From Thiomicrorhabdus sp. 6S3-12 (lineage in GTDB: Bacteria; Pseudomonadota; Gammaproteobacteria; Thiomicrospirales; Thiomicrospiraceae), in the NCBI RefSeq assembly GCF_017571475.1, contig NZ_JAGETW010000004.1, positions 186,001 to 250,000 of the forward strand: a stretch of 64,000 bases of DNA, in the 5' to 3' direction. The notes under the pieces are model-generated. The model did not search any database. It saw nothing but the letters and a program-made list of their open reading frames with translations, and had not been told where the DNA came from. Numbering within the stretch: the stretch's first letter is position 1; every line of letters starts with the position of its first letter. Shown piece after piece: positions 22,256 to 37,198 of the stretch. Both the position numbers and the translations under genes were made by a program.

Positions 22256-22921
22256 ATGACTATGCAAAGCCACCAATACTTCACGCTCATTTCCAGTCTG
22301 CCCAATCTACCCGCACGCTTTGACACGCCCAACTATGAGCCGATTAGCCAACTGCGTCTGGAGCAACGCCTGCAAATGCTGGAAAAAGAAGATGCGAAGA
22401 CACTGGCGGCATTACAGAAATTTTTCCATTGGGAGCATCATCCTCAGCAGCATACTGACCTTGAAGTGGTCGAAGTCCTGAAAACATTTCTTGACGAGAT
22501 TGACAACCCGCTCTCCCGCAACCTGGTGCTGCATATGATGAATGTGCGTTTCATCAATGCCGCATTACGCCTGCGCCAGGCAGGTCGGCCATTTCCGCCA
22601 TCCGTCGACAGCTGGTGGCACCGCCATGTAAAGCGTCACTGGGATCAAACCGATCTCGGCATGTCGGCGCGTTACCCATGGGTCAACGACCTGCATAGTC
22701 TGCTTGAAGCCAAGGACGTAAAAGGCGTACACCACAAGACGGTCGATATTCTTTGGCAATATCTGCTGCGCAAGTCATTGAACTACACTTTCAGCTTTGA
22801 GGCGGTAATCCTCTATAACGCCCGCTGGCACCTGATTCACGGTTGGCAAAAACAGAACAGCGAACAGGGAAAAACCCAATTCAACTTACTTTTAGAAGAG
22901 GCCTTAGGTAATCATGTCTGA
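22256..22921 (+). CDS. DUF2764 protein, V-ATPase accessory subunit
   Basis: Protein of 221 residues encoded between subunits E and A, the same relative place as the DUF2764 gene of bacterial V-ATPase operons in chlamydiae and Bacteroidetes. The start QYFTLISSLPNLP matches the family opening. It is Trp- and His-rich and soluble. No classical subunit C gene is present, so it probably links the central rotor to the membrane ring; that role is inferred from position. It starts at 22256 or 22262 and overlaps the subunit A start by 8 nt. Confidence 0.8.
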   Translation: MTMQSHQYFTLISSLPNLPARFDTPNYEPISQLRLEQRLQMLEKEDAKTLAALQKFFHWEHHPQQHTDLEVVEVLKTFLDEIDNPLSRNLVLHMMNVRFINAALRLRQAGRPFPPSVDSWWHRHVKRHWDQTDLGMSARYPWVNDLHSLLEAKDVKGVHHKTVDILWQYLLRKSLNYTFSFEAVILYNARWHLIHGWQKQNSEQGKTQFNLLLEEALGNHV

Positions 22922-24695
22922 ACAAAATATTCCTTTTGCCAAAGTCACTGGTGTAAACGGCAATATCGTTTCCATTGAACATCCTCATGGCCACCTGATG
23001 AAAAATGAAGTGGCCTATGTGCATGTCGGTGACGAACAACTCAAAGCCGAAGTCCTGCGCATCCGCGGCAAAACGGCCGACCTGCAGGTTTATGAAGAAA
23101 CCGCAGGCGTCAAAGTCGGCGATCAGGTTCAACTGACCGGAGAACTGCTTTCCGCGGAACTGGGACCCGGCCTGCTCGGGAAAGTCTATGACGGCTTGCA
23201 AAACCCGCTGCATTCGGTGGCAAGCGCCCACGGTTTCTTTCTCCCTCGTGGCAAGTATTTGAATGCCTTGGACAATGTGCACAAATGGGCATTCAACCCT
23301 CTGGTTCGTTCTGGGGAAAAAGTGATTGCCAGTCAACCCATCGGCACCGTTCAGGAAGGCCGTTTTACACACAAAATCATGGCGCCATTCAACCTTAAGG
23401 GCGAAGCGGAAATCACTTGGATTCAGGGCGGCAGCTTCAGCGTCGATGAACCGATTGCCCGTATTCGAGATCAACAGGGGCGCGAAGAAGTCATTACCCT
23501 GAAACAAAAATGGCCGGTGCGCATCCCGATCCCGGAGAAACTGATTGAAAAACGCATTGCCGAACGAAAATTTCCCGATGAACCCCTTATTACCACTCTG
23601 CGTCTGATCGACACCTTTTTCCCGATTGCCAAAGGCGGTACTGCTTGTATTCCCGGTCCATTCGGAGCGGGCAAGACGGTACTGCAAAGTTTGATATCGC
23701 GTTATTCATCGGCGGATATCGTTATCGTAGTCGCCTGTGGCGAACGTGCTGGCGAGGTGGTGGAAACCATTGAAACCTTTGCCGAGATGAAAGACCCGAA
23801 AGGTGAAGGGACTTTGATGGAACGCACCATTGTTATCTGTAATACCTCATCCATGCCGGTTGCCGCCCGTGAAGCCTCTATCTATATGGGCGTTACCTTG
23901 GCCGAATACTACCGCCAAATGGGTTACGACACTCTGGTTCTGGCGGACTCCACGTCGCGCTGGGCCCAGGCGATGCGTGAAACATCAGGACGACTGGAAG
24001 AAATTCCCGGCGAAGAGGCCTTTCCTGCCTATCTCGACTCGGCTATCAAGAACATTTACGAACGCGCCGGCGTAATTGAAAATCTTGATCGTCAAAAAGG
24101 CAGTCTGACGCTTATCGGTACCGTCTCTCCTGCGGGCGGTAACTTTGAAGAACCGGTTACCCAATCAACCTTAGGTACCGTAAAAACCTTCCTTGGTCTT
24201 TCCTATGACCGTGCCTATAAACGCTACTACCCTGCCATCGATCCGCTTATCTCATGGTCGCGTTACGGGCTGCAGTTAAAGGACTATTTTGATAAACATA
24301 TCGCCCCGGACTGGACAGACAGTATAGAACGAGTGCGAGAGATACTGGTCAAAGCGGAAGGTATCGAACAAATGATGCAGGTAACCGGCGAAGAAGGGAT
24401 AACCCAGGATGACTTCATCCTCTTCCAAAAAGCAAAAATGCTTGATCTGGTCTATCTTCAGCAAGACGCCTTCGACCCGGTCGATGTCTCGGTTGACCTA
24501 AATCGCCAGAAAGAAAACTTCACCCTGTTGAAGAAAATTGTCGATACAGATTTTGAGTTTAATGAGAAACAGGACGCCAGCGCATTTTTTACGAAAATCA
24601 CCGGTATTTTCAAGAATATGAACTACTCAGTCTATGCCTCAGGTGAGTACAACAAGCATTTAAATGAAATCAACAAGATGATTGAAGCATATTAA
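22914..24695 (+). CDS. ntpA: V-type ATP synthase subunit A (catalytic)
   Basis: Catalytic V1 subunit of 593 residues. Walker A is GPFGAGKTVLQ (about 247); Walker B-type segment is YDTLVLADSTSRWAQAMRE (about 340), followed by PGEEAFPAYLDSAIKNIYERAG. A non-homologous insert precedes the P-loop, as in A/V-type A subunits. It is last in this operon and is followed by a strong terminator, so the B gene does not follow A. Confidence 0.97.
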   Translation: MSEQNIPFAKVTGVNGNIVSIEHPHGHLMKNEVAYVHVGDEQLKAEVLRIRGKTADLQVYEETAGVKVGDQVQLTGELLSAELGPGLLGKVYDGLQNPLHSVASAHGFFLPRGKYLNALDNVHKWAFNPLVRSGEKVIASQPIGTVQEGRFTHKIMAPFNLKGEAEITWIQGGSFSVDEPIARIRDQQGREEVITLKQKWPVRIPIPEKLIEKRIAERKFPDEPLITTLRLIDTFFPIAKGGTACIPGPFGAGKTVLQSLISRYSSADIVIVVACGERAGEVVETIETFAEMKDPKGEGTLMERTIVICNTSSMPVAAREASIYMGVTLAEYYRQMGYDTLVLADSTSRWAQAMRETSGRLEEIPGEEAFPAYLDSAIKNIYERAGVIENLDRQKGSLTLIGTVSPAGGNFEEPVTQSTLGTVKTFLGLSYDRAYKRYYPAIDPLISWSRYGLQLKDYFDKHIAPDWTDSIERVREILVKAEGIEQMMQVTGEEGITQDDFILFQKAKMLDLVYLQQDAFDPVDVSVDLNRQKENFTLLKKIVDTDFEFNEKQDASAFFTKITGIFKNMNYSVYASGEYNKHLNEINKMIEAY

Positions 24696-24840: not shown

Positions 24841-26076
24841 TCAACCCGACTTGGGCATTACCGGCTGTGGGTATAAAGGAATACTCTCGTCGATAATTGA
24901 ATCCGTGTTTACCGGAATCTGTTCGCCGATCAACCTTTTGCCCAGCGTAAAATCCATCGGACTATTGATCGCTTCCAGAGCCTGCAATCGATCTCCCATC
25001 ATATGCAGAACAGAGAAACTGCCGCTGGAAGGATCACCGCGCAGCATAGAGGTGTAATCCGGCCGCACGATACCGGCAATCTGTAAACGAATATCGAACT
25101 GATCGGACCAGAACCAGGGAACTTCGCTGCGTGGCGCCGGCTTATTCATAATCTGAGCGACGATCATACGAGCCTGAGCGGTTGCATTCTGTACTGACTC
25201 CAAGCGCAAGGAAGTTTGCAATAAAGCATGAATCTGACGCGTACAATCGCCGGCCGCAAAGATGTTTGCATGACTGCTGCGACACTGATCATCGATCACA
25301 ATCCCGTCGTCGCATTTCAGCCCTGCCTTCTGAGCAAGTTCGGTATTGGCAACGGCACCTATGCCAATTACCACGACGTCTGCAGGCCAGGTAAGCCCGT
25401 CCTCGGCCTCAACCGCCATCACCTGGTGTTCGCCTTGCAATGCCGACACATTGACGTTGCACACTACCTTCACACCAGCCGCTTCATGCATACTCTGATA
25501 GTATTCAGACACCTGCGGCGATGCGCTGCGCTCCATTACCCGGCTGGCGCGTTCCAGTACGGTCACATCCAGTCCTTGTTTGACACAGGATGCGGCCAGT
25601 TCCAACCCCACATAACCGGCACCGATAATTACCAACCGCCCCTTCTCAGGCAAAGCGTCCTTGATCGCCTGCGCATCGTCGATGCCACGCAAGGAAAACA
25701 CATGCTTCAAGCCCACTCCTTTGATCGGCAGGTCACGCGGTCGAGAACCGGTGCTCAACACCAGAGAGCTATAACTTAATTGCTCACCGTCATCCAAGCG
25801 CACACGACACTCTTCCGCCTGAATAGATTGCACCCGACAGCCTTTTATTAACTGTATCTGCTTCTGTGCATAATAGGATTCCGGTTTGACCAGCAACGCA
25901 TCGACACCAATCTCGCCATTGATAACGCCTTTAGATAGAGGCGGACGCTGATACGGCGCATAGGCTTCCTCACCGATCAGCGTGATCGTGCCCGAATAGC
26001 CTGCCTGAGCCAAACCGGTCGCGACCGTTGCACCGGCCAGTCCCGCACCGACAATAACGACACCTGCATCACTCAT
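24841..26076 (-). CDS. FAD/NAD(P)-dependent ferredoxin reductase
   Basis: Pyridine-nucleotide reductase of the putidaredoxin/rhodocoxin reductase type, 411 residues. FAD site VVIVGAGLAGATVA at the N-terminus, YQRPPLSKG (about 50), second Rossmann motif VIIGAGYVGLELA (about 150) for NAD(P)H, and FAD-contacting IFAAGDCTR (about 270). It would pass electrons to the 2Fe-2S ferredoxin encoded two genes upstream. The ATG at 26076 is one base after the RidA-like stop, implying coupled translation. Confidence 0.9.
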   Translation of the reverse strand: MSDAGVVIVGAGLAGATVATGLAQAGYSGTITLIGEEAYAPYQRPPLSKGVINGEIGVDALLVKPESYYAQKQIQLIKGCRVQSIQAEECRVRLDDGEQLSYSSLVLSTGSRPRDLPIKGVGLKHVFSLRGIDDAQAIKDALPEKGRLVIIGAGYVGLELAASCVKQGLDVTVLERASRVMERSASPQVSEYYQSMHEAAGVKVVCNVNVSALQGEHQVMAVEAEDGLTWPADVVVIGIGAVANTELAQKAGLKCDDGIVIDDQCRSSHANIFAAGDCTRQIHALLQTSLRLESVQNATAQARMIVAQIMNKPAPRSEVPWFWSDQFDIRLQIAGIVRPDYTSMLRGDPSSGSFSVLHMMGDRLQALEAINSPMDFTLGKRLIGEQIPVNTDSIIDESIPLYPQPVMPKSG

Positions 26077-26077
26077 A

Positions 26078-26482
26078 TCAATCAACCGGCTTTTTATAAG
26101 CAACCAGATCAATCTCGACCAGCGCGTCCCGACCCAATTCAGCCACGCCGAAAGTCGTACGACCGGGCAGATACTCTTTCTTAAAATGGCCGACAATAAT
26201 CTCGTTCATGGCGTGGAAATCCCGTTTGAAATGCGTCATGTAGATACGCAGAAACATGACATTGTCAAAAGTGTACCCTGCGTGCTCAAGAATCAGTCGC
26301 AGATTCTCGAACACCAGCTTTGTCTGTGCCTGTATATCATCCGGCAAAGGCGCTTGCGGATCTTTCGGGTCGGTGGGCAACTGACCGGTTACATGCAGCC
26401 AGCCGGCCGCTTCTACCGCGTGATGATAAGGCGACGCCGGTGGCGCAGCGGTTTCGACAAAATGATGTGTAATACCTTCCAA
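26078..26482 (-). CDS. RidA/YjgF family protein
   Basis: Rid proteins hydrolyse reactive enamine/imine intermediates or act in degradation pathways (as RutC does). The 134-residue product has the family elements VTGQLPTDP, QAQTKLVFENLRLILEHAGYTFDNVMFLRIYMT and GRTTFGVAEL with the Arg that binds substrate carboxylate in RidA, followed by VEIDLVAYKK. The start is TTG at 26482 with AGGAG 6 nt upstream; no early ATG exists. Probably specific to the pathway of this cluster. Confidence 0.88.
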   Translation of the reverse strand: MEGITHHFVETAAPPASPYHHAVEAAGWLHVTGQLPTDPKDPQAPLPDDIQAQTKLVFENLRLILEHAGYTFDNVMFLRIYMTHFKRDFHAMNEIIVGHFKKEYLPGRTTFGVAELGRDALVEIDLVAYKKPVD

Positions 26483-26524
26483 AATCAGCTCCTTAGAAAT
26501 TGCCGTTACAGTGAAAATAGAGTT

Positions 26525-26845
26525 TTAAATGAATTGCGATTCAGGCATCTGCAATACCAGCCCATCAAGCTCCGGCACCAGATTTATCTGGCAGGCCAGA
26601 CGGCTGTTTTCCGCAAGATCGGAGCGCGAAGCCAGCAAAGCTTCTTCCATGGGAGAGGCTTCCCCCACCTGTTGACTCCACTTCGGGTCGACAAATACGT
26701 GGCAGGTCGCACAGTTACAGTTACCGCCGCAATCGCCCTCAATACCGTCGATGCCGTTATTGATCGCCGCTTCCATCGCCGTCATGCCTTCGTCGGCATC
26801 GACGGTGTAAGATGTGCCGTCAAAGGACAAAAATGTAATTTGCAT
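26525..26845 (-). CDS. 2Fe-2S ferredoxin (adrenodoxin type)
   Basis: One-electron carrier of 106 residues. Cluster ligands are three Cys in CGGNCNCATCHVF (C-x5-C-x2-C, with one extra Cys) and a fourth in RLACQI, as in putidaredoxin and terpredoxin. Such ferredoxins usually serve a P450 or Rieske oxygenase, neither of which is encoded nearby. Good GGAG before the ATG. Confidence 0.93.
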   Translation of the reverse strand: MQITFLSFDGTSYTVDADEGMTAMEAAINNGIDGIEGDCGGNCNCATCHVFVDPKWSQQVGEASPMEEALLASRSDLAENSRLACQINLVPELDGLVLQMPESQFI

Positions 26846-26892
26846 TAATATCTCCTATTGGATTGATTAGTTAAATTCGCTTAAATCTACTT

Positions 26893-27720
26893 CTACGACT
26901 GAGCCGCGAAACCCATCACCTGAGCCAGTTCAGCTTCTGTGAATTCGTCATAGGCGACCTCTTTTTCCAAATGCGCTTCCAAGCGTTGTCGAATGGAGGC
27001 CAGCGAAGCTTCGTCGAGTCGACGAGGTCGCGGGACATCGATGTCGATGACCTCACTGATCGTGCCGGGCGAACCCGAAAACAGGACCAGACGATCCGCC
27101 AGATAGAGGGCTTCGTCGAGATCGTGCGTCACCATAATCACCGTGGCGTCGGTGGCCTGCCAGGTCATCAGCAGATAATTCTGCATAATGCGCCGAGTCT
27201 GATGATCGAGTGCGGCAAAGGGTTCGTCCATCAACAGCAGTCCCGGTTGCATCGCAAACGCACGCACCAGCGCCACCCTCTGTTTCATACCGCCGCTGAG
27301 TTCGTCCGGAACCTTGTCCGCATAGTCCTCAAGCCCGACATTCGCCAGTAGCTCCATTGCCCGTTGTCTCGCCTCCTTGCGCGGCATACCGCGATTGCGA
27401 AATGCAAAGGCGACGTTGTCGCAGGCGGACAACCATGGAAACAGGTTATAATGCTGGAACAGCAGCGCCACATTCTCCGTCGGCCCGGCCACTTCACGCC
27501 CTCCGACAAACACGTAACCTTCGCTCGGTTCATCCAGTCCCGCGGCAAGACCGAGCATGGTGCTTTTGCCGCAGCCGCTGGGACCGATAATCACCGTAAA
27601 ACTACCACCGGGCACCTTGAGCGAGACATCCTGTGTCGCCTTTTTTTCGCCAAAACTTTTACTGACGTTTTCAAATACGACCTGTGTCGGACGGCGCTTT
27701 TTTTCGTTTATATTGCTCAT
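26893..27720 (-). CDS. ABC transporter ATP-binding protein (nitrate/sulfonate/taurine type)
   Basis: Energises the importer with the permease encoded upstream. The 275-residue protein has Walker A GPSGCGKST, Q-loop LFQHYNLFPW, signature LSGGMKQRVALVRAF and Walker B LLLMDEPFAALD, followed by the switch His in VTHDLDEA. The family (SsuB/TauB/NrtD-like) imports small organic or inorganic anions. The ATG at 27720 overlaps the permease stop as ATGA. Confidence 0.94.
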   Translation of the reverse strand: MSNINEKKRRPTQVVFENVSKSFGEKKATQDVSLKVPGGSFTVIIGPSGCGKSTMLGLAAGLDEPSEGYVFVGGREVAGPTENVALLFQHYNLFPWLSACDNVAFAFRNRGMPRKEARQRAMELLANVGLEDYADKVPDELSGGMKQRVALVRAFAMQPGLLLMDEPFAALDHQTRRIMQNYLLMTWQATDATVIMVTHDLDEALYLADRLVLFSGSPGTISEVIDIDVPRPRRLDEASLASIRQRLEAHLEKEVAYDEFTEAELAQVMGFAAQS

Positions 27721-28616
27721 CGACGGTACTCCCACCACAACAAACGACGCTGAATCAGCAACAGCAGTCGATCAATAACAAATCCCAGAACACCAATGGT
27801 GATAATCCCCACCATCACCAGTTTCATGTTGTACATCTGCTGGCCGAGAATAATCAGATATCCGAGTCCGGAATTGATACCGGCCATCTCTCCGGCCAGC
27901 ACCGCCATCCACGCGGCAAAGAAACTCATGCGTGCCATGACCATTAAATCGGGCGCGGCTGCCGGGATAATGACACGAGTCCACATATGCGTGCTGCTGG
28001 TTCCAAGACTGCGCCCCACTTTCAGCATCTCTTCCGGAACACTGTCGAAAGCGGCGACCGCCGAGACCGTCATCGAGCCGAAAATCGCCATAAAGACCAC
28101 AAAAATCGCTGCCGGTGAACCGATCCCGACCAGTGCGATGGCAAACGGAATCCAGGCCACAGGAGAGACCGGAGCCAGAGTCTGTACAATTGGAAAACAA
28201 ACACGGCGCAACGGCTTATAACGTACGATCAGCGCACCAACCAGCAGTGCCGCCAAGATCCCCAGAAGATAACCGATAGCGACGCGGCTTAAGGTATCGA
28301 AAATAGCGCCCAGAAATGTCGTGCGCTGTGCGCCGATGCCAGCCGGTGCGGGTCCCTGCAATAGATAAGGTATGGTTTCACTCGGAGGCGGCAAAATCCG
28401 CGGATTAAGCACTTCGGTATAAGCCCCCAATTCCCAAAGCGCGGCAATCAGCAACCAGGCGAACAGCAACCAACCCGCTTCGCTCCAGGCCAATCGCATG
28501 CGACTGGGTTTCACCGTGATGCTGCGAGATGCACGTGTTTTCGGGGCAGCAGAAGCAGTGGCTTTTTCAGCTGCGGCGTTTTCAAATATTTCGGACTCGG
28601 GTCGATTACCGGTCAT
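27717..28616 (-). CDS. ABC transporter permease (nitrate/sulfonate/taurine type)
   Basis: Membrane subunit, 299 residues, with about six helices after a polar N-terminal extension (about 45 residues). The EAA-type cytoplasmic loop is visible around VPEEMLKVGRSLGTSSTHMWTRVIIPAAAPDL. The ATG at 28616 (GGAG 8 nt upstream) overlaps the DUF1116 gene stop as ATGA. Partner of the ATPase and of the binding protein that heads the cluster. Confidence 0.93.
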   Translation of the reverse strand: MTGNRPESEIFENAAAEKATASAAPKTRASRSITVKPSRMRLAWSEAGWLLFAWLLIAALWELGAYTEVLNPRILPPPSETIPYLLQGPAPAGIGAQRTTFLGAIFDTLSRVAIGYLLGILAALLVGALIVRYKPLRRVCFPIVQTLAPVSPVAWIPFAIALVGIGSPAAIFVVFMAIFGSMTVSAVAAFDSVPEEMLKVGRSLGTSSTHMWTRVIIPAAAPDLMVMARMSFFAAWMAVLAGEMAGINSGLGYLIILGQQMYNMKLVMVGIITIGVLGFVIDRLLLLIQRRLLWWEYRR

Positions 28617-29854
28617 ACGCATTTCTCCAATTGTTGCGGGGTGACACTGTCAAGGTAGTTACAGGCCTGAGTAAAACAGTCCAGCGGCGCATCCACTGCA
28701 CCGATGCCGATCCAGCCGGTCATACCGTTCCGATGAGCGATTCCGGTATGAATACGTACCCCGCTGCGACTGCTGACTACGCGGTAGGCATCCAACCCCA
28801 GACCGAGGCCATCATCACCGGCTAATACCGGGTGTATTTGCGAATGAGCGGCAATAAAAAAACTGCGCTGCAAACGCCCGGCGTTTACCGCCACGGACCA
28901 GGGCGTCTTTAAAAGTACGGCCAGCTGCGGAGCACAATGCGCTGCGGTACCGCCAAGTCCGAAGGCTTCCATAATGGCACTGTCACCGAGATCGGCCTGC
29001 GCATCCTGGAGAGTGAATGGCGGATAAAATCCACCATCGGGAATTCCGGAAGGCGCACAGAACCATTTCTCGCCGGTGCCCGCCAACTGAATACCACACT
29101 TATTACCGTTACGGGCAATCGCCACTACAATGCTCGAACCGTCAATGCCCCGCGCCTGATCCAGGCACAGTTTGGCGGACGCCATGGCGTAATTGAGAAA
29201 ATGCTGCGGGTTGGCGAGCAACCAGCTGCGCACGTCCGCGTCCAGATCGGGAAGCGCCTTGATAAAGGCATACATTCCGCCGACATTGCGTTGATGCACA
29301 TCGTCGCCGAGCGTGACACCTTGCGCAATTAACGGCAGTACGGCCAGCCCCTCCTCAGGCAAACAGTCCGCTATAGCAGGAGCCACGCGGTTTTCTACGA
29401 AGGCCAGATGTTCGGCGACCTGATCGTCATAAACGCCGAAACGCAGTGCGCGGCGCCCGCCTTCGGCAAAGGTCGCATAACAGACGCCGTCACCAGCGTG
29501 GTTTTCCACCCGCATCAAAGGTTGTGACGGCCGAACCACTCCGGCCATCGGCGAGACGGTGCCCAATTCGTGATTGCTGCGCAATCTGATCTCGCGACTT
29601 TCGATCATAGTGCGCGCCTCGTGAATTGTTTTCGCCCAACCCTCGATCACGGCCGCACCGGCCAACGCACTCAGGACCGTTGTCGGCAGGATTTCGTCAT
29701 CGGCGAAAGGCGGACCGGCATGCCCCAGCTCCCGCTCCCGCAAACCGAGTGCGGTATGCGCCGGCTCTATGCCGACGAGTACCGGTTCGCAGGCGGCAAT
29801 GTGATCCAAAGCTTGGCGATTGGCCGCGCTGAGATTGTTTATCTGCTGTACCAT
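28613..29854 (-). CDS. DUF1116 family protein (YlbE/AllG-like)
   Basis: 413 residues resembling E. coli YlbE, a DUF1116 protein assigned to the oxamate carbamoyltransferase complex. Shared features recalled from the family are HAGPP, EGWAKT, PMAGV, LRFGVYDDQV, AQGVTLGDDVHQRN, ARNGNKCGIQLAGTGEKWF, LGDSAIMEAFGLGG and NTGIAH-like TGIAHRNGMTGWIGIG. The usual partners (FdrA-like and DUF2877 proteins) are not in the window. It may act in processing an amide or carbamoyl group of the imported substrate; that is inference. Confidence 0.8.
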   Translation of the reverse strand: MVQQINNLSAANRQALDHIAACEPVLVGIEPAHTALGLRERELGHAGPPFADDEILPTTVLSALAGAAVIEGWAKTIHEARTMIESREIRLRSNHELGTVSPMAGVVRPSQPLMRVENHAGDGVCYATFAEGGRRALRFGVYDDQVAEHLAFVENRVAPAIADCLPEEGLAVLPLIAQGVTLGDDVHQRNVGGMYAFIKALPDLDADVRSWLLANPQHFLNYAMASAKLCLDQARGIDGSSIVVAIARNGNKCGIQLAGTGEKWFCAPSGIPDGGFYPPFTLQDAQADLGDSAIMEAFGLGGTAAHCAPQLAVLLKTPWSVAVNAGRLQRSFFIAAHSQIHPVLAGDDGLGLGLDAYRVVSSRSGVRIHTGIAHRNGMTGWIGIGAVDAPLDCFTQACNYLDSVTPQQLEKCV

Positions 29855-29864
29855 TACGCCTTCC

Positions 29865-31118
29865 TCAAGCCGTAACTGCTAGCGGAACAGAACTCTCTTC
29901 TTCGAAAGGTTCCAACACCGAGTCGACGCTCTCCCCCATTATTTCGGCAAGGAATGGCGCGCGCGGAATGACATCCTTCCACGGGCTCGAGGTTCTGCAC
30001 CACACATCGCCCAGTTTGCGAGCCAGAATCGGGTCGGCTATTGCCGCATCCATGACTTTGCGCATACCTTCGTCTGAAGGAACCTCTGCCAAATGCTTAC
30101 AGAACGCATACAGTTCGCGGGACACACTTTCGCGCCATTTCGGATATTCAGTACGATAATTGCCTGCCAGAATCATCGGCGCGACCGCTTCACTGGCATG
30201 CAAGGCATCGCCAATTCCTTGTGCGCCGGCGGGATGTTTGAAATGAGAGGCGTCGCCGACCAATAGCCAGCCGGGACCGACGGAATCGCGGTAATAGCCT
30301 TCAAGTTTCGGCGTACCTTTGACACGAGTCACTTTCTCCGCATTTTCCAGACGCGACCAGAGTGCAGGCATCGACTTCAAACGCTCCATATAGAAGTCGT
30401 CCATGTTTTTGATTTTCGGACGTTCGCTTAGAGGGCCGTTCATGGTGACAACGTGATAACCGTTGTCGGCGGGAAAATGCGCGTGTACCCAAGGCGGTTC
30501 AAAGAAGAAATCCTGAGTATTGCGTGTATCAACCCCTTTCCAATAGGCAAAATACAACATGGTATCGGTAGGCATAACCTTGTGCTTTTGCGCGCCGACC
30601 AGTCTGGCGACGGTTGAATTGACACCGTCGGCACCGGCGACCGTGTCCGCTTCAAACTGAATTACCTGATCACCGTTTTTGGCGACAAAACCGCTTACCG
30701 GATCGTCTTCGCTACCGGAACCGAGCAGTTCGGTCACTGTCCAGCCTTCGTAAATATCCGCCCCCTCTTCACGCGCCTTGTTAACCATAATGGCGTCCAA
30801 AGTAATACGCCGCACGCAGATGGCCCAATCGCGGCCGTCCACCGGCGTATGTGGAGCGACAAACATGCGGTTTTCGTGAATCCATGAGGTGTACAGCGGC
30901 GGCGGACCGTTATCGAGAATTTCCTGTAAAACCCCGAGGCGCTCGAAACGCTTCAGAGTATTCGGATACACCACATGGGTGGACATAATGTCTGAAGGGA
31001 AAGTGGCGCGGTCGACCACCGCAACCTTCTGCCCCAATCTTTGCAGCTCAATCGCCAGCGACGCGCCGGCAGCACGCGCGCCGACGATCACTGTATCGTA
31101 TCGTTTGACTTCACTCAT
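29865..31118 (-). CDS. FAD-dependent monooxygenase-like oxidoreductase
   Basis: Member of the p-hydroxybenzoate hydroxylase/geranylgeranyl reductase superfamily, 417 residues. FAD motif VIVGARAAGASLA (GxGxxG variant with Ala), then RATFPSDIMSTH, a DG-type motif VAGADGVNSTVARL (about 170) and GD motif WLLVGDASHFKHPAGAQGIGDAL (about 285-307). It probably hydroxylates or oxidises the imported substrate with NAD(P)H. GGGAG precedes the ATG; DUF1116 follows 10 nt downstream. Confidence 0.85.
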   Translation of the reverse strand: MSEVKRYDTVIVGARAAGASLAIELQRLGQKVAVVDRATFPSDIMSTHVVYPNTLKRFERLGVLQEILDNGPPPLYTSWIHENRMFVAPHTPVDGRDWAICVRRITLDAIMVNKAREEGADIYEGWTVTELLGSGSEDDPVSGFVAKNGDQVIQFEADTVAGADGVNSTVARLVGAQKHKVMPTDTMLYFAYWKGVDTRNTQDFFFEPPWVHAHFPADNGYHVVTMNGPLSERPKIKNMDDFYMERLKSMPALWSRLENAEKVTRVKGTPKLEGYYRDSVGPGWLLVGDASHFKHPAGAQGIGDALHASEAVAPMILAGNYRTEYPKWRESVSRELYAFCKHLAEVPSDEGMRKVMDAAIADPILARKLGDVWCRTSSPWKDVIPRAPFLAEIMGESVDSVLEPFEEESSVPLAVTA

Positions 31119-31149
31119 TTAATAGCTCCCTGTTCGTCTGCCATAAACA

Positions 31150-32214
31150 TCACACAGGTTGATGACTGAGGTTAAGCACTTCATCGGCGATATTGGTATC
31201 GAAGTAACCGAGTTCGATCAGATACTTAACACCCTTGCGGATACCGGAGACACCGGCGGCGTTAATTAACGGATCCGGCGACTGGCGTTTCAACGCAATA
31301 GCAAGTATTTCACGAGGCACACCGTACAAAGGTTGCAGATCGTCCAAGGCCGCATCGAAATCGTTATAGAAAGACTCGGCTGACTCACGCAATACCGCCA
31401 TGTAATCGGTGGCCATAGCACTGTCCTTTTTCAGGAAACCTTCAGTTGCGGTGATCACGCAATCCGGCGCTTCCGGACCCCAGACATCGTTACTGTCAGC
31501 CAGATAAATACCGCCTGCTTCCTTCACCACCATTTCGGCGTACGGCTGAGCCAGCGTACACACATCCACGGAACCGTTAATAAGCGCTTCCCCCATACCG
31601 ACCATACTCGGGAAAAAGGTCATTTCGTAATCATCGTAGGAGACGCCGTTCTGAGACATCACGCCATGAGCGACCAATTCAAGTGTATCCAGACGTAATG
31701 TCCCGACACGCAGTTTCTTACCGGCTTTTTCGATGAATTCGTTTACGTTGGCAACACTGCCCTTGCGAGCGACCAGCTCAATACCGGCCAGACCTGAACC
31801 GCCGATAATGCGTAGATCTTTGCTGCCTTCGGCATAAGCGGCCATGGTTGTCGTCCAAGGGTTGTGCATCATGTGCAACTCGCCGGCAACCAAAGCGCGA
31901 ATGTTATCCGCCGGGCCATTGAACTGAACCAGGTCAACCTTGAGTCCGGCCTTGGCAAACATGCCGCGTTTCTTCGCCAGTAATACATGTGAGACACATC
32001 CTGCAGGTAAATGACCGACTTTAAGAGTCGTACTGGAAACGGCAGCTTCCGCTCGACCGGCTGTCGCAAGCATAAGTCCGGCGGCCGGTGTCAGCGCAAG
32101 CGCCGCACAACAGGAACAACCGCTACGCAAAAAGTCACGTCGGCCGTGACCCGCTTCATCAGTTTTGCTAACAACATCGGTAGATTGAAACCACTTAAAT
32201 AGATCGCTTTTCAT
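31150..32214 (-). CDS. Tat-exported ABC substrate-binding protein
   Basis: Periplasmic binding protein of the SsuA/TauA/NMT1 class, 354 residues, delivering substrate to the ABC importer encoded downstream. The N-terminus has a twin-arginine signal (GRRDFLRSG, about 25-33) followed by a hydrophobic stretch. The mature part opens TTLKVGHLPAGCVSHVLLAKKRGMF. First gene of the cluster, preceded by AGGAG, a promoter and a TetR-type operator. Confidence 0.9.
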   Translation of the reverse strand: MKSDLFKWFQSTDVVSKTDEAGHGRRDFLRSGCSCCAALALTPAAGLMLATAGRAEAAVSSTTLKVGHLPAGCVSHVLLAKKRGMFAKAGLKVDLVQFNGPADNIRALVAGELHMMHNPWTTTMAAYAEGSKDLRIIGGSGLAGIELVARKGSVANVNEFIEKAGKKLRVGTLRLDTLELVAHGVMSQNGVSYDDYEMTFFPSMVGMGEALINGSVDVCTLAQPYAEMVVKEAGGIYLADSNDVWGPEAPDCVITATEGFLKKDSAMATDYMAVLRESAESFYNDFDAALDDLQPLYGVPREILAIALKRQSPDPLINAAGVSGIRKGVKYLIELGYFDTNIADEVLNLSHQPV

Positions 32215-32294
32215 GGGGTGAGACTCCTAAAAAAATACAAGTAATTAATCAGACAGTCATTACCTGGCTGCCTCGTTGGACGGTGGAAAACAAG

Positions 32295-32310
32295 TAGACC
32301 AATCGGTCTA
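32295..32310. promoter_or_regulatory. TetR-family operator of the catabolic cluster
   Basis: Perfect 6-bp inverted repeat TAGACC-AATC-GGTCTA, the form bound by NemR/AcuR-type TetR regulators. It overlaps the last two bases of the -10 box of the minus-strand promoter, so a bound repressor would block initiation. The adjacent tetR-type gene is the obvious candidate regulator. Confidence 0.8.
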
Positions 32311-32337
32311 TCTATCAGTAAACAAGAGACATGCCAA
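32309..32337 (-). promoter_or_regulatory. Promoter of the catabolic cluster
   Basis: Minus-strand TTGGCA (32337-32332), 17 nt, TAGATA (32314-32309), then the operator. The leader to the binding-protein gene is about 85 nt. Confidence 0.6.
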
Positions 32338-32618
32338 CACTAAAACAATCAAATAAGATATTGATATACAAGGATTTATAATTATTAACCAAGAAAATAA
32401 CTGTGACAAAGAAACATAAAACGCACGATTAATGAGCGCCTAGTAAAATTGCGCACCAATATGCAACACCATTTCAGGATTTAATTTTTAAACGCCGCAA
32501 AGCCTCAAACGGCAGCGAAGATTGACTAACCGTAAGGCCCTCCTTAAGATAGCGAAATTAAAGGCCTGAGTTCCCCGAGGCAAAACATGTGAAACCATCG
32601 AAGAACGATAATGAAAAC

Positions 32619-32637
32619 CGCACTTCACCGAAGTGCG
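32619..32637. repeat. Short palindrome upstream of the TetR-type gene
   Basis: CGCACTTC-ACC-GAAGTGCG, 8-bp perfect arms. No T run follows, so it is more likely a protein-binding site than a terminator. Confidence 0.45.
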
Positions 32638-32810
32638 ACGAATCAAAGGTCACCAGATGTATCAAAGATAAAAATGTCGACGAGGAAAGACCGGATACAT
32701 TATTGAAAAATGAGTCCTTAAAGCACCGAGCCAAATACATCTTGCCGGAGCACGCTAGGTTTTAGAGTAAAATTCAGAGTGCAAGGTTTACAAAAGTCAG
32801 GAGAATCGGC

Positions 32811-33416
32811 TTGAAACACGCATGCTACCAACGCAATGCTAACAAAACGGATATCGGCTCTTCGGAACGTCTGTTATCCGTAGCCAATGAACTGTTCTGC
32901 CGTGACGGCATCCACGCTACCGGTATCAAGAAAGTACTGGATGAGTCCGGCGTCGCACGGCGAACACTCTATAAACACTTCAACTCCAAAGAAAATCTGG
33001 TGCGGGCTGTTCTCGAAAGGGAGAGCGCATTATGGCTCGACTGGTTCCGTGATTTCATCAATAATGCCGCCGACACACCGCGTGATCGATTACTGTGCAT
33101 TTTCGATGCCCTCAAAGTGTGGTTCGAAGACGAGTCTTTTTTCGGATGCGCTTTTATTAATGCGGTGATGGAAAATCACAAGCAGGATGAATCCATACGG
33201 GAACTCGCTCTGCAACATCGGGAGAATACCAACCGCTTTATTGAAGAGCTGGCCACAGCAGCCGGAGCCAATGCCCCTCGCCTGCTTACCGAGCAGCTCG
33301 GGATACTTGTCGACGGCGCCATTGTCGGCGCAGTGACGCTACAGAACTCGGAACCTGCGACACATGCCAAAATGGCCGCCCGGATACTGATAGAGGCAGC
33401 AATTAAACAGGAGTGA
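32811..33416 (+). CDS. TetR/AcrR family transcriptional regulator
   Basis: 201 residues. The N-terminal helix-turn-helix reads LFCRDGIHATGIKKVLDESGVARRTLYKHFNSKENLV (about 28-65). The remainder is an all-helical ligand domain containing FEDESFFGCAFINAV, typical of a TetR subgroup with C-terminal effector pocket. The start is TTG at 32811, supported by AGGAG about 8 nt upstream; the nearby ATG at 32822 is out of frame. Divergent from the cluster, which it probably represses in the absence of substrate. Confidence 0.9.
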   Translation: MKHACYQRNANKTDIGSSERLLSVANELFCRDGIHATGIKKVLDESGVARRTLYKHFNSKENLVRAVLERESALWLDWFRDFINNAADTPRDRLLCIFDALKVWFEDESFFGCAFINAVMENHKQDESIRELALQHRENTNRFIEELATAAGANAPRLLTEQLGILVDGAIVGAVTLQNSEPATHAKMAARILIEAAIKQE

Positions 33417-34373: not shown

Positions 34374-36290
34374 TCAGTGATAGAAATTAATGCGATTTTT
34401 ACCGGAATTTTTCGCTTTGTACATCGCTCTGTCGGCTTGGTTAATAATCGATTCGACGGAAAGTTTTGAATCAGGCTGAATCTCTCTGATACCGATACTG
34501 CATGAAACATGCATGGTATTGCCATCGATACTGACCGCTTCGTTGACTTTATGCAGAATCCTTTCGCTGATGGCATACAACTGCTGAGAATCTTGAAAAC
34601 CGCTTAACAGCACCAGAAACTCGTCCCCCCCCATACGGGCGACAAAATCGGTAGATTTCGTCGAATCGGTCAAACGACGGGCAATGATTTTCAGTAACTC
34701 ATCTCCGGCGTGGTGTCCGAAACTGTCATTGACCTCCTTAAAACCGTCCAGATCAATAAATAACAGTGCCAGCTTGGTTTTCTTATTGGCATTGAACAAG
34801 GCGGCTTCCAGATGTTCTTCAAAGTAATTCCGTCCCGGCAGCTCTGTCAAAGAGTCGAACATTGCCGCCCGCTTGAGCTTTTCTTCAAACGCTTTCTTCT
34901 CGGTCACTTCGACGTGAGTACCGCCCATCAAAAGTGCATTGCCGTCTTTTGACCGGGTAATGACTTTGCCTCGAGAATGGATCCATATCCAGCGTCCTTT
35001 TTTATGCCTTAAACGCAGATCCATTTCATATTCATTTTCCTTACCGGCCAGGTTATCCTGAATTTTACGCTTCATTTCCAGAAGGTCATCCGGATGTACC
35101 AGCGAGGCGAATTTTGCAAAATTGAACGGCTGCAATTCATCCCGCGTATAGCCGATCTGAGTCACATAATGCTCGTTGATCTCCATACGGTCTTTTGCAA
35201 GATCCCATTCCCAGGTTCCTACCCGGGTTGCAGTGATAATATTCTCCAACCGCTTGTGGTTCATCATGGCGATGCCGCGATACTTTTCCGATTTCCACAA
35301 TGCGAAGACGATTGCAAAAACCGCAAGCAACACAAAAGAAATCACGCGCCAGTAGGAATTCCATATCTCGCTGAATGACGGTTTTTGCACCACATCATAA
35401 GGTTCAAGACGCAACTCTCTGAGCATCATTTCAAAAGGCAGATAATTCAAGGGCGAAACAAATCCCTGAATCCCGTCGATCTCATTTTCTGCAAACAGCG
35501 AGCGGTTGATTTTAAAAAGCGAGGAAGCGATTTTTCTGGAATCGTCGGAACCGACATTCGGCATGATAATAAAAGCCCATTCCGGATAGAGGTGCGTCGA
35601 CAGGATAAACGGAAAACTTTTCAAATCGCGTCGATTAATGATCTGCACTTCATCCAACGAACTCAGTTCTCCGCGTCCGAGCCAGTTTTCAAGGATTCCG
35701 GTGCGCACAAAACCGACATCGGCTTTGCCGGAAAGTACCGCTTCCATGACATGATCATTGGAACCGACTTTCATAAAATCCAGCTGCTGGTAACGAATAC
35801 CGGAACTAACAAGTTCGTATAAAGGAATGCGAAAAGCACCAGAGTTGCTTTCGGAAGGAATGGCGATTTTCGCTTTTCTAAGATCCTTCAACTCTTTGAA
35901 TTTACTCCCTTTACGCGAGATAATCACGCCGCCCAGACTGGAAGTACCCACCCCGTCACGATAACGTTCCAGCGTAGCGGTAATGCCACTGATAAAACTT
36001 TCATGACGGATAATCTCGTATAAAGACGGACTGATCAGCAGCATATCCACTTGTCCGGAACGCACCGCTTTACGGATCTCCTGATTACGCATTACAACCA
36101 GTTTGACCTCAATCCCGTCAATATCGCGACTTAAAAAGTCCGCGATTGGAGAAAACTCCTGAAAGGTTTTTTCCTTTGACTGATAGGCGTAAACGCCTAA
36201 AGTCAGAGTCTTCGACTGAGCCCCGATTGACTGAGCGATCAGAATTCCGAATAAAAATAAGATAAAAAAAACAGGTCGCTTCACAAACAT
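34374..36290 (-). CDS. Periplasmic-binding PhnD-like/PAS/GGDEF diguanylate cyclase
   Basis: 638 residues. A signal peptide (1-24) leads into a periplasmic binding domain of the PhnD/phosphonate type (about 28-300: TLTLGVYAYQ, FSPIADFLS, GQVDMLLISPS). One membrane helix follows (about 318-337), then a PAS domain (about 350-470) with PAC segment and a GGDEF domain (about 480-638) with active site GGDEF. The inhibitory RxxD site is not evident (KSTD precedes), so feedback inhibition may be absent. The start overlaps the upstream binding-protein gene by 10 nt. Confidence 0.9.
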   Translation of the reverse strand: MFVKRPVFFILFLFGILIAQSIGAQSKTLTLGVYAYQSKEKTFQEFSPIADFLSRDIDGIEVKLVVMRNQEIRKAVRSGQVDMLLISPSLYEIIRHESFISGITATLERYRDGVGTSSLGGVIISRKGSKFKELKDLRKAKIAIPSESNSGAFRIPLYELVSSGIRYQQLDFMKVGSNDHVMEAVLSGKADVGFVRTGILENWLGRGELSSLDEVQIINRRDLKSFPFILSTHLYPEWAFIIMPNVGSDDSRKIASSLFKINRSLFAENEIDGIQGFVSPLNYLPFEMMLRELRLEPYDVVQKPSFSEIWNSYWRVISFVLLAVFAIVFALWKSEKYRGIAMMNHKRLENIITATRVGTWEWDLAKDRMEINEHYVTQIGYTRDELQPFNFAKFASLVHPDDLLEMKRKIQDNLAGKENEYEMDLRLRHKKGRWIWIHSRGKVITRSKDGNALLMGGTHVEVTEKKAFEEKLKRAAMFDSLTELPGRNYFEEHLEAALFNANKKTKLALLFIDLDGFKEVNDSFGHHAGDELLKIIARRLTDSTKSTDFVARMGGDEFLVLLSGFQDSQQLYAISERILHKVNEAVSIDGNTMHVSCSIGIREIQPDSKLSVESIINQADRAMYKAKNSGKNRINFYH

Positions 36291-37198
36291 TGATCCGTAT
36301 GCACCGCCTTATCCGGAACGGTTTTCAACAGTCCGGATGCTTTTAGAATCAAAGCGATCTCGCGCGTTTTTTCAAAAAAACGGTTATCACCAAACATTTG
36401 CAGATTGATCTCTCTGGACGGCAGCGTAATTCCCCCGAGAGAAGTCAGCACTTCTTCATGGGTAAAACCTAGGTTGTCGGCAATCTGATAGCTACTCTCC
36501 TGAAAATTATCTTTGATCAGACTGACCCCGGCGAAATGCGCATCGACCAGTTGTTTAATACTTGAACAGGCATTCTCAAGCACATTCGAATCGACGGCTA
36601 ACACATCGACAATCACTTCCGGCATTTGCGAACTGTTGAAGACCTCCTGCGCACCTGAACGTAAAATCTGCGTCGATACCGGATCATAGGTAACGATCAT
36701 GTCCGCCTCGCCGCTTTCCCAGAAACGATACTGCCTATCAAGCGAGATATGTTTGAGGACAACATCGGACTGTTTGACCCCGTAATGTTCCAGGAACTTG
36801 TACAACATTAGTTCGCCGACACCGCCCCTTTCATAAGCGATGGTTTTTCCGATGATATCCTCTTTGCGGGTTATCGCCGTTCTGGCAAGTACCTTGTCGG
36901 CCCCCGAAGAGATATCGGTAATTAAAACTACGCTAAGCGATTTGCCCTGATCTCGCAGCGAGAGTACTTCATCCAAGGTCAGATAGCCTGCATTAATCTC
37001 GCCGTCGAGCAGCTGTTGCTTGGTTTGCAAAGCGGTTTTATTTTTAATCAGATGAATATTCTGCGGCAGAAGGCCATTTTGCTGCGCAAGATTGATCGGT
37101 TGATAGCCGATCCAAGGATGGACGCCGACATGCAACTGCGTTTCTCTGGAGCAGCCCAGAAAGGAAATTAACGTCAATAAGATAAGCAGAACTCTCAT
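36281..37198 (-). CDS. Lipoprotein substrate-binding protein (NMT1/SsuA-like)
   Basis: 305 residues with a lipoprotein signal ending FLGC, then a binding-protein fold opening LHVGVHPWIGYQPINLA and containing GEINAGYLTLDE and ESGEADMIVTYDP. No ABC permease or ATPase gene is adjacent; instead the gene overlaps the downstream sensor cyclase. It may present a ligand to that cyclase rather than to a transporter; this is inferred from the coupling. Confidence 0.87.
   Translation of the reverse strand: MRVLLILLTLISFLGCSRETQLHVGVHPWIGYQPINLAQQNGLLPQNIHLIKNKTALQTKQQLLDGEINAGYLTLDEVLSLRDQGKSLSVVLITDISSGADKVLARTAITRKEDIIGKTIAYERGGVGELMLYKFLEHYGVKQSDVVLKHISLDRQYRFWESGEADMIVTYDPVSTQILRSGAQEVFNSSQMPEVIVDVLAVDSNVLENACSSIKQLVDAHFAGVSLIKDNFQESSYQIADNLGFTHEEVLTSLGGITLPSREINLQMFGDNRFFEKTREIALILKASGLLKTVPDKAVHTDQCL

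Follow-up and report, generated by a model that had tools for sequence, protein, structure and literature searches.

Several described systems resemble parts of the locus analyzed here, a predicted operon with a divergent regulatory gene in the 2.55-Mb genome of Thiomicrorhabdus sp. 6S3-12. Within a 64,000-nucleotide (nt) stretch of this genome (hereafter the window), eight genes encode a substrate-binding protein (SBP), a flavin adenine dinucleotide (FAD) monooxygenase (FMO), a DUF1116 (AllG-family) protein, the permease and ATPase of an ATP-binding cassette (ABC) importer, a [2Fe-2S] ferredoxin (Fd), a RidA-family protein, and a ferredoxin reductase (FdR); a ninth gene encodes a TetR-family regulator. 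In Escherichia coli, the rutABCDEFG operon is laid out with a divergent rutR (PMC8113886). Ancestral tetrapod COQ6 proteins had no activity when supplied with NAD(P)H and turned over their substrate only in the presence of FDXR and FDX2 (PMC7615680); likewise, neither NADH nor NADPH reduced the flavin of yeast Coq6, which was studied as a maltose-binding protein fusion (PMC4726752). Oxamic transcarbamylase of E. coli requires AllF, AllG, and AllH, all three (PMC11326118).

How does the Thiomicrorhabdus locus compare with these systems? As far as the account in PMC8113886 describes it, Rut shares with our locus a divergent regulator, a transporter, a flavin monooxygenase served by a separate reductase, a deaminase of the Rid family that has the catalytic arginine, and an enzyme for a carbamoyl-bearing fragment. 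The two differ in that the window has an FMO of family PF01494 and a ferredoxin chain in place of RutA and RutF, AllG in place of RutB, and an ABC importer in place of RutG. Among the Pfam matches listed for the operon proteins, none was to a luciferase, isochorismatase, or flavin-reductase family, the types of RutA, RutB, and RutF. Because none of these families was present, the operon is not a member of the Rut pathway, and the likeness in how it is predicted to work is one of layout. With COQ6 and its partners, the locus shares the combination of an FAD monooxygenase, a 2Fe-2S ferredoxin, and its reductase, which form one unit in all four loci compared below; COQ6 itself is presumably a PF01494 protein. 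Unlike COQ6, the FMO here sits in a catabolic operon with a predicted imported substrate, is accompanied by a reductase of the putidaredoxin-reductase type, and falls outside the UbiH/COQ6 subfamily (3.5e-15, 55.8 bits; cutoff of 224.65 not reached). Judged from these features, the operon FMO is COQ6-like in its predicted electron supply only.

We propose that the locus is a horizontally transferred, TetR-controlled operon that would scavenge nitrogen from a small compound of the amide, ureide, nitrile, or N-heterocycle type. In our judgment this specific reading could as easily be wrong as right, and the broader one, that the genes serve organic-nitrogen scavenging, is fairly probable. The original prediction knew of no named pathway with this gene set, and we agree: a literature search for the combination returned no paper, the set matched no described pathway that we found, and the relatives described below are not part of a known one. 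A search combining Thiomicrorhabdus, monooxygenase, ABC transporter, and genome found nothing, and a search on nitrogen sources of Thiomicrorhabdus did not name the genus among the matches listed. DUF1116 itself was mentioned in six papers.

Results

Conservation and transfer of the nine-gene unit

We compared four loci: the window, two further Thiomicrorhabdus loci (L006 and L007), and a locus in a metagenome-assembled genome (MAG) of the Hydrogenophilales (L011). AllG was present in 3 of the 62 genomes of the order, and all three (window, L006, and L007) carried the complete nine-gene unit. Thiomicrorhabdus heinhorstiae HH1 carries the cluster. Relative to the window, the nine proteins were 92 to 99% identical in L006 and 81 to 96% identical in L007. 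The nine genes of L011 were collinear with the window, with eight proteins 76 to 90% identical and AllG aligning in two pieces (79% and 68%); for the SBP, identities were 99, 92, and 88% in L006, L007, and L011 and 53% in Kovacikia minuta. The self-contained, TetR-linked uptake-and-degradation unit that had been predicted from the window was thus recovered with all nine genes, in the same order, in four of four loci. The relatives in L006, L007, and L011 also answer the proposal to look for genomes that conserve the same neighbors, and in them the genes were neither scattered nor assignable to a known pathway. In the MAG, a stretch of N breaks up the AllG gene (L011:4982-6114); this is probably an assembly gap.

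For comparison with the cluster, we used another gene on its MAG contig, that for a subunit A of gyrase or topoisomerase IV (PF00521), whose best matches in the three Thiomicrorhabdus genomes were 45 to 46% identical (a second, partial match reached 49% over 409 residues). The far higher identity of the cluster across orders supports horizontal transfer, as measured against this one control gene. The G+C content of the operon was 54.4%, versus 48.7% and 45.7% in its 10-kb flanks. Ratios of nonsynonymous to synonymous substitution rates (dN/dS) for the nine genes were 0.009 to 0.098 between the window and L006 and 0.024 to 0.104 between the window and L007, indicating purifying selection. RidA, Fd, and SBP were the most constrained, FMO and the ATPase came next, and AllG and FdR were the least constrained. 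These data support the view that the nine genes form a selected module that would have moved horizontally as a block.

Wider searches each recovered the query genome alone. This was the result for the SBP in 1 of 369 genomes of the class, 1 of 398 of the phylum, and 1 of 117 of the MAG's family, and for the FMO in 1 of 399 genomes of the MAG's order, with at most four candidates scored per genome; for the class, phylum, and order, the genomes searched were a sample of a larger group, and with strict limits of 1e-40 to 1e-60 these results do not imply that the cluster is absent elsewhere. A scan of genome contigs with one SBP sequence, which reaches close relatives only, gave 26 stretches matching the pattern, 2 of which encode a relative.

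A proposed electron chain of a ferredoxin pair and a flavin monooxygenase

Ferredoxin and reductase pairs of the putidaredoxin type usually serve cytochromes P450 or Rieske oxygenases. Like CamAB, our locus combines the putidaredoxin and putidaredoxin reductase types in one operon; it differs in that the four genomes searched (G000, G051, G427, and G428) contained no P450 match (PF00067; controls positive in 7 of 14). Ring-hydroxylating Rieske alpha subunits (PF00848; controls positive in 4 of 14) were found in none of the three Thiomicrorhabdus genomes and, in the four genomes overall, once, in the MAG on a contig other than that of the cluster. On these genome-wide searches, we rejected a P450 system with its oxygenase elsewhere for the four genomes and a corresponding Rieske system for the three Thiomicrorhabdus genomes. 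The FMO was the sole oxygenase candidate in the operon. With no P450 and, in Thiomicrorhabdus, no Rieske oxygenase to serve, the ferredoxin pair probably feeds the FMO. We therefore lean slightly toward a single electron chain, predicted to run from FdR through Fd to the FMO, where two redox systems had been noted originally.

The FMO retains the motifs GARAAG, DG, and GD, and the ferredoxin has cysteines at positions 39, 45, 48, and 85. No WxWxI was found in the FMO sequence; since WxWxIP is the motif of flavin-dependent halogenases, a halogenase was rejected. Among the closest solved structures was 2-methyl-3-hydroxypyridine-5-carboxylate oxygenase (MHPCO; 5e-13), an enzyme that opens an N-heterocycle. 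This match is not specific, as the halogenase CmlS is equally close (3e-14).

The best-surviving alternative is that the FMO draws its electrons straight from NAD(P)H and that Fd and FdR serve another oxygenase or a desaturase elsewhere in the genome. Direct use of NAD(P)H is the norm for FMOs of the PF01494 class, and the DG motif is retained here. Ferredoxins were not annotated within 4 kb of any of four distant FMO relatives examined (31 to 36% identity, incomplete tables; 83 plasmid records matched in all), and the Rieske oxygenase of the MAG would be a possible client. The search for acceptors covered P450s and ring-hydroxylating Rieske oxygenases among ferredoxin users, and the completeness rating of 100% applies to the Thiomicrorhabdus genomes G000, G051, and G025 (the genome listed above as G428), with no figure for the MAG. 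The class norm, the DG motif, the relatives without neighboring ferredoxins, the range of acceptors covered, and the unrated MAG count against a ferredoxin-fed FMO. Against a separate client, all four loci retain both Fd and FdR in the operon, and the three Thiomicrorhabdus genomes offer neither of the usual clients. The dN/dS values of Fd (0.012 and 0.028) are among the lowest, yet those of FdR (0.098 and 0.096) are among the highest. Taken together, we regard a separate client for the ferredoxin pair as rather unlikely.

Importer relatives and the class of substrate

To what class of compound does the importer point? SBP relatives on plasmids were found in 14 records, of which we examined eight: that of Kovacikia minuta and seven others (H59, H63, and H66 to H69 were left out). 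The seven were 26 to 30% identical to the window SBP over 58 to 99% of the query, and enzymes acting on carbon-nitrogen bonds adjoined all seven. A nitrile hydratase and an isochorismatase-like hydrolase stood beside the relative in three (Gloeocapsopsis, Klebsiella pneumoniae, and Stutzerimonas stutzeri), a carbon-nitrogen hydrolase and an amidohydrolase in another three (Burkholderia, Klebsiella oxytoca, and Methylobacterium), and an amidohydrolase in one (Sodalis). These neighbors point to a compound of the amide, ureide, or nitrile type. Together with the conserved arginine and glutamate of RidA (below), they lend support to the nitrogen-containing class of substrate suggested in the original prediction. 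The importers linked to nitrile hydratase have the same order of SBP, permease, and ATPase as the window, with SBPs 26 to 28% identical and permeases 38 to 39% identical (two measured); the window operon differs in lacking both a nitrile hydratase and an amidase.

This combination of an ABC importer with nitrile hydratase and the isochorismatase-like hydrolase is a recurrent plasmid-borne unit, seen in a cyanobacterium, an enterobacterium, and a pseudomonad (L063:3284-8708, L064:6034-10999, and L065:5965-10861), and is probably a nitrile-uptake operon.

The closest importer relative outside the group was on a Kovacikia minuta plasmid, where tblastn matched the SBP (51%), the permease (58%), and the ATPase (55%), followed by RidA (50%). 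A TetR-family gene is divergent there as well. FMO, Fd, FdR, and AllG had no match in the 25 kb of the plasmid examined, and AllG was not found across the whole 1.2-Mb plasmid. Behind the TetR gene lies an SfnB-family flavin oxidoreductase (582 bits; cutoff, 431), and on the other strand lies an SsuE FMN reductase (241 bits; cutoff, 164). At this one locus, it is as if the oxygenase and reductase had been swapped together while the importer and RidA were kept, which fits Fd and FdR as the reductase of the FMO and RidA acting on the oxygenation product. The SfnB, SsuE, and importer-RidA genes occur together with a carbonic-anhydrase-family gene (L009:7680-15821).

The same Kovacikia neighbors are the best support for a second alternative, in which the operon acquires sulfur from an organosulfur compound. 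They exceed their curated cutoffs beside the importer, and the SBP matches the SsuA family. However, the SBP scored 73 bits (2e-20) against the SsuA family model, short of the cutoff of 163.5, so that a sulfonate (Ssu) importer was rejected. The window operon has no SfnB or SsuE gene, and the other SBP relatives examined adjoin carbon-nitrogen enzymes in seven of seven cases. Thiomicrorhabdus and the Hydrogenophilales live by sulfur oxidation and autotrophy, and sulfur oxidizers have little need of sulfur scavenging. We consider sulfur acquisition quite improbable.

RidA, TetR, and a conserved operator

Arg108 and Glu123 of the operon RidA align with catalytic positions of RidA proteins, and the equivalent arginine is essential in RutC (PMC8113886). 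The protein did not reach the cutoff of the RutC equivalog model (55.6 bits; cutoff, 169.1), nor did the TetR protein reach that of RutR (31.5 bits; cutoff, 368).

TetR orthologs in L006, L007, and L011 were 94, 87, and 78% identical to that of the window, and all were divergent too. An operator-controlled promoter had been proposed for the operon; the operator is real, a palindrome that lies between TetR and SBP in all four loci, as seen in sequence conservation. In the operon-strand reading, TAGACCGATTGGTCTA starts 96 nt upstream of the SBP start codon in both the window and L006 and 91 nt upstream of it in L011. In L007, the operator reads GGAGACCGATTGGTCTCC: a G-C pair takes the place of the T-A pair that flanks the core elsewhere, so that both arms are changed and the dyad is kept. 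The core AGACCGATTGGTCT was found in the SBP/TetR intergenic region of all four loci, 90 to 95 nt upstream of the SBP start codon. AGACC-N4-GGTCT has a single exact occurrence in the window. Because about one site with two or fewer mismatches is expected by chance in 64 kb, the evidence for the operator lies in its position and the conservation of its dyad, not in its rarity. The operator may resemble the NemR box, a likeness that would favor the detoxification role considered below; a literature search on NemR and the palindrome found nothing.

TetR control is also what one might expect of a detoxification operon, in which TetR would sense a toxic or electrophilic compound, the FMO would inactivate it, and RidA would clear reactive enamines. 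The scattered occurrence of the unit (3 of 62 genomes in its order) and its transfer are in line with such a role. However, one would not expect a toxin to have its own importer and exported binding protein, none of the nine genes encodes an efflux protein, and AllG would have no obvious role. Detoxification therefore strikes us as very improbable.

AllG without its partners

DUF1116 corresponds to AllG, and carbamoyl or amide chemistry had been suggested for this protein in the original prediction. The operon shares with AllFGH and the carbamate kinase AllK an AllG homologue (PF06545, 3e-58). It differs in that no AllF, AllH, or AllK match was found near it, either in the 64-kb window or in L006, L007, and L011, and in that 20 of the 70 residues invariant in 13 AllF-linked AllGs are changed (50 of 70 kept; 30 to 36% identity overall). 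AllH was found in none of the four whole genomes, with the E. coli control positive; AllF was not searched genome-wide. The partner queries carry the AllH, CoA-ligase, and amino-acid-kinase families in a Pfam check.

A draw of the phylum gave 18 AllG places besides that of the window, and we examined 16, leaving out a second place each in G610 and G668. AllF and AllK accompanied AllG in 12 of 12 high-scoring loci, 8 of which had a detectable AllH. Four divergent AllG loci (L045 to L048), like the window, L006, L007, and L011, had none of the three. Their neighbors were a Rieske oxygenase, a ferredoxin-reductase homologue, an amidase, and an amidohydrolase in L045; a molybdenum hydroxylase in L046; an NMT1-type importer, a 2-oxoglutarate oxygenase, a short-chain dehydrogenase/reductase, and an amidohydrolase in L047; and an amidase and an amidohydrolase in L048. 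AllG without AllF thus recurs near oxidation and amide chemistry. A tree of 20 AllGs (that of L011 was left out of the alignment and tree) did not support a single monophyletic subfamily of orphan AllGs: L046 to L048 formed one clade, a long branch led to a second one made up of the three cluster AllGs, with the corresponding caution about long branches, and L045 lay elsewhere.

Of the suggested chemistry, the assignment to AllG stands; the partners are missing from the operon, and AllH from the genome, which leaves carbamoyl chemistry as a hint from homology, and we suggest only tentatively that the lone AllG acts on a carbamoyl group. That the operon belongs to allantoin/oxalurate catabolism as an oxamic transcarbamylase, the proposal that the AllG match itself invites, was rejected, since AllH is missing from four of four genomes, AllF and AllK are not near AllG, and the E. 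coli enzyme needs its three proteins together.

The loci L045 to L048 are four different oxidation or amidohydrolase islands and possible uncharacterized pathways in their own right. On a Methylocystis iwaonis plasmid (L005:9809-14235), AllG and an AllF-like protein of the CoA-ligase family (annotated as "oxidoreductase") lie two genes apart within a nitrilase/radical-SAM gene set that we take to be Nit1C; AllK and AllH had no match at this locus.

Gene order and flanking genes

Eight minus-strand genes had been reported for the cluster, and all were found where predicted; TetR is on the plus strand and outside the eight (Table 1). Their tight spacing also held up, with five gaps of 31, 10, 47, 42, and 1 nt and two overlaps containing ATGA (AllG/permease and permease/ATPase). 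In the ATPase gene, an internal ATG at 27720 used as the start would give an ATGA overlap, as read from the junction sequence. The SBP has RRDFL at residue 25.

Table 1. Coordinates of the features of the nine-gene locus in the window
Feature	Position	Strand	Support
TetR-family regulator, divergent from operon	32811..33416	+	TetR_N 6e-14
Palindromic operator TAGACC-N4-GGTCTA, between TetR and SBP	32295..32310	.	sequence dyad
SBP, predicted export by twin-arginine translocation (Tat), NMT1/SsuA-like	31150..32214	-	NMT1_2 2e-16
FMO, PF01494	29865..31118	-	FAD_binding_3 1e-23
DUF1116 (AllG-family) protein	28613..29854	-	PF06545 3e-58
ABC importer permease	27717..28622	-	BPD_transp_1 7e-18
ABC importer ATPase	26893..27738	-	ABC_tran 2e-30
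[2Fe-2S] Fd, putidaredoxin/adrenodoxin-type	26525..26845	-	putidaredoxin 1e-26; 3hui 5e-32
RidA/YjgF-family deaminase (predicted), TTG start	26078..26482	-	PF01042 1e-28
FdR, putidaredoxin-reductase-type	24841..26076	-	1q1r 2e-94; Pyr_redox_2 7e-70; Reductase_C 5e-24

The window and L006 have common flanks: a V-ATPase subunit gene borders the cluster on one side, and a GGDEF gene and a second NMT1 gene border it on the other; the flanks of L007 differ. In the window, the gene for a V/A-type ATP synthase catalytic subunit (22914-24695) runs toward the last gene of the cluster in convergent orientation. At 34374-37198, two genes overlap, one for an NMT1-type binding protein that lacks ABC partners and one for a phosphonate-binding-like protein with PAS and GGDEF domains; they look like a ligand-sensing cyclic-di-GMP pair. 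This pair adjoins the cluster in L006, where the GGDEF gene matches in two frames, and not in L007 or L011.

Discussion

Our analysis suggests a sequence of steps for the proposed scavenging of organic nitrogen. TetR would repress the operon through AGACC-N4-GGTCT until the substrate or an intermediate appears. By homology, the Tat-exported SBP and the ABC importer would bring the compound into the cell. Electrons from NADH would then pass through FdR and Fd to the FMO, and oxygenation of the compound would leave a ring-opened or unsaturated amine. RidA, in which the catalytic residues are present, could hydrolyze the enamine or imine to a carbonyl compound and ammonia. In the most speculative step, the lone AllG might hydrolyze or phosphorolyze what remains as a carbamoyl or amide fragment.

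Several observations weigh against nitrogen scavenging by this route. The context of carbon-nitrogen hydrolases comes from SBPs of low identity, four of them matched over 58 to 69% of the query, with no control set of unrelated NMT1/SsuA importers, and the operon itself contains no amidase. In Kovacikia, the neighbors of the importer are sulfur-acquisition enzymes, the TetR gene gave no tblastn match to the window TetR at 1e-5, so that an ortholog was not detectable, and the intergenic region has no such operator. Structure predictions for the SBP and FMO reached mean confidence scores (pLDDT) of 33.7 and 40.2 from alignments of four similar rows.

A fuller version of the nitrogen-scavenging proposal, which we regard as doubtful, would join all of its parts. 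A catabolic FMO driven by putidaredoxin, with a COQ6-like electron supply outside quinone biosynthesis, would open or hydroxylate the nitrogen compound, RidA would remove the enamine nitrogen, and the lone AllG would release a carbamoyl group without AllF or AllH. The operon would then be a second, unrelated answer to the task of the Rut pathway that has spread among sulfur bacteria by horizontal transfer.

If the nitrogen-scavenging proposal is correct, the operon would make flavin monooxygenases driven by ferredoxin tractable in a bacterial system, a kind of enzyme for which COQ6 is the case that we found in print. It would also indicate a function to seek for lone AllG proteins, which are present in at least four other loci examined, and it would give a sulfur bacterium a route to organic nitrogen.

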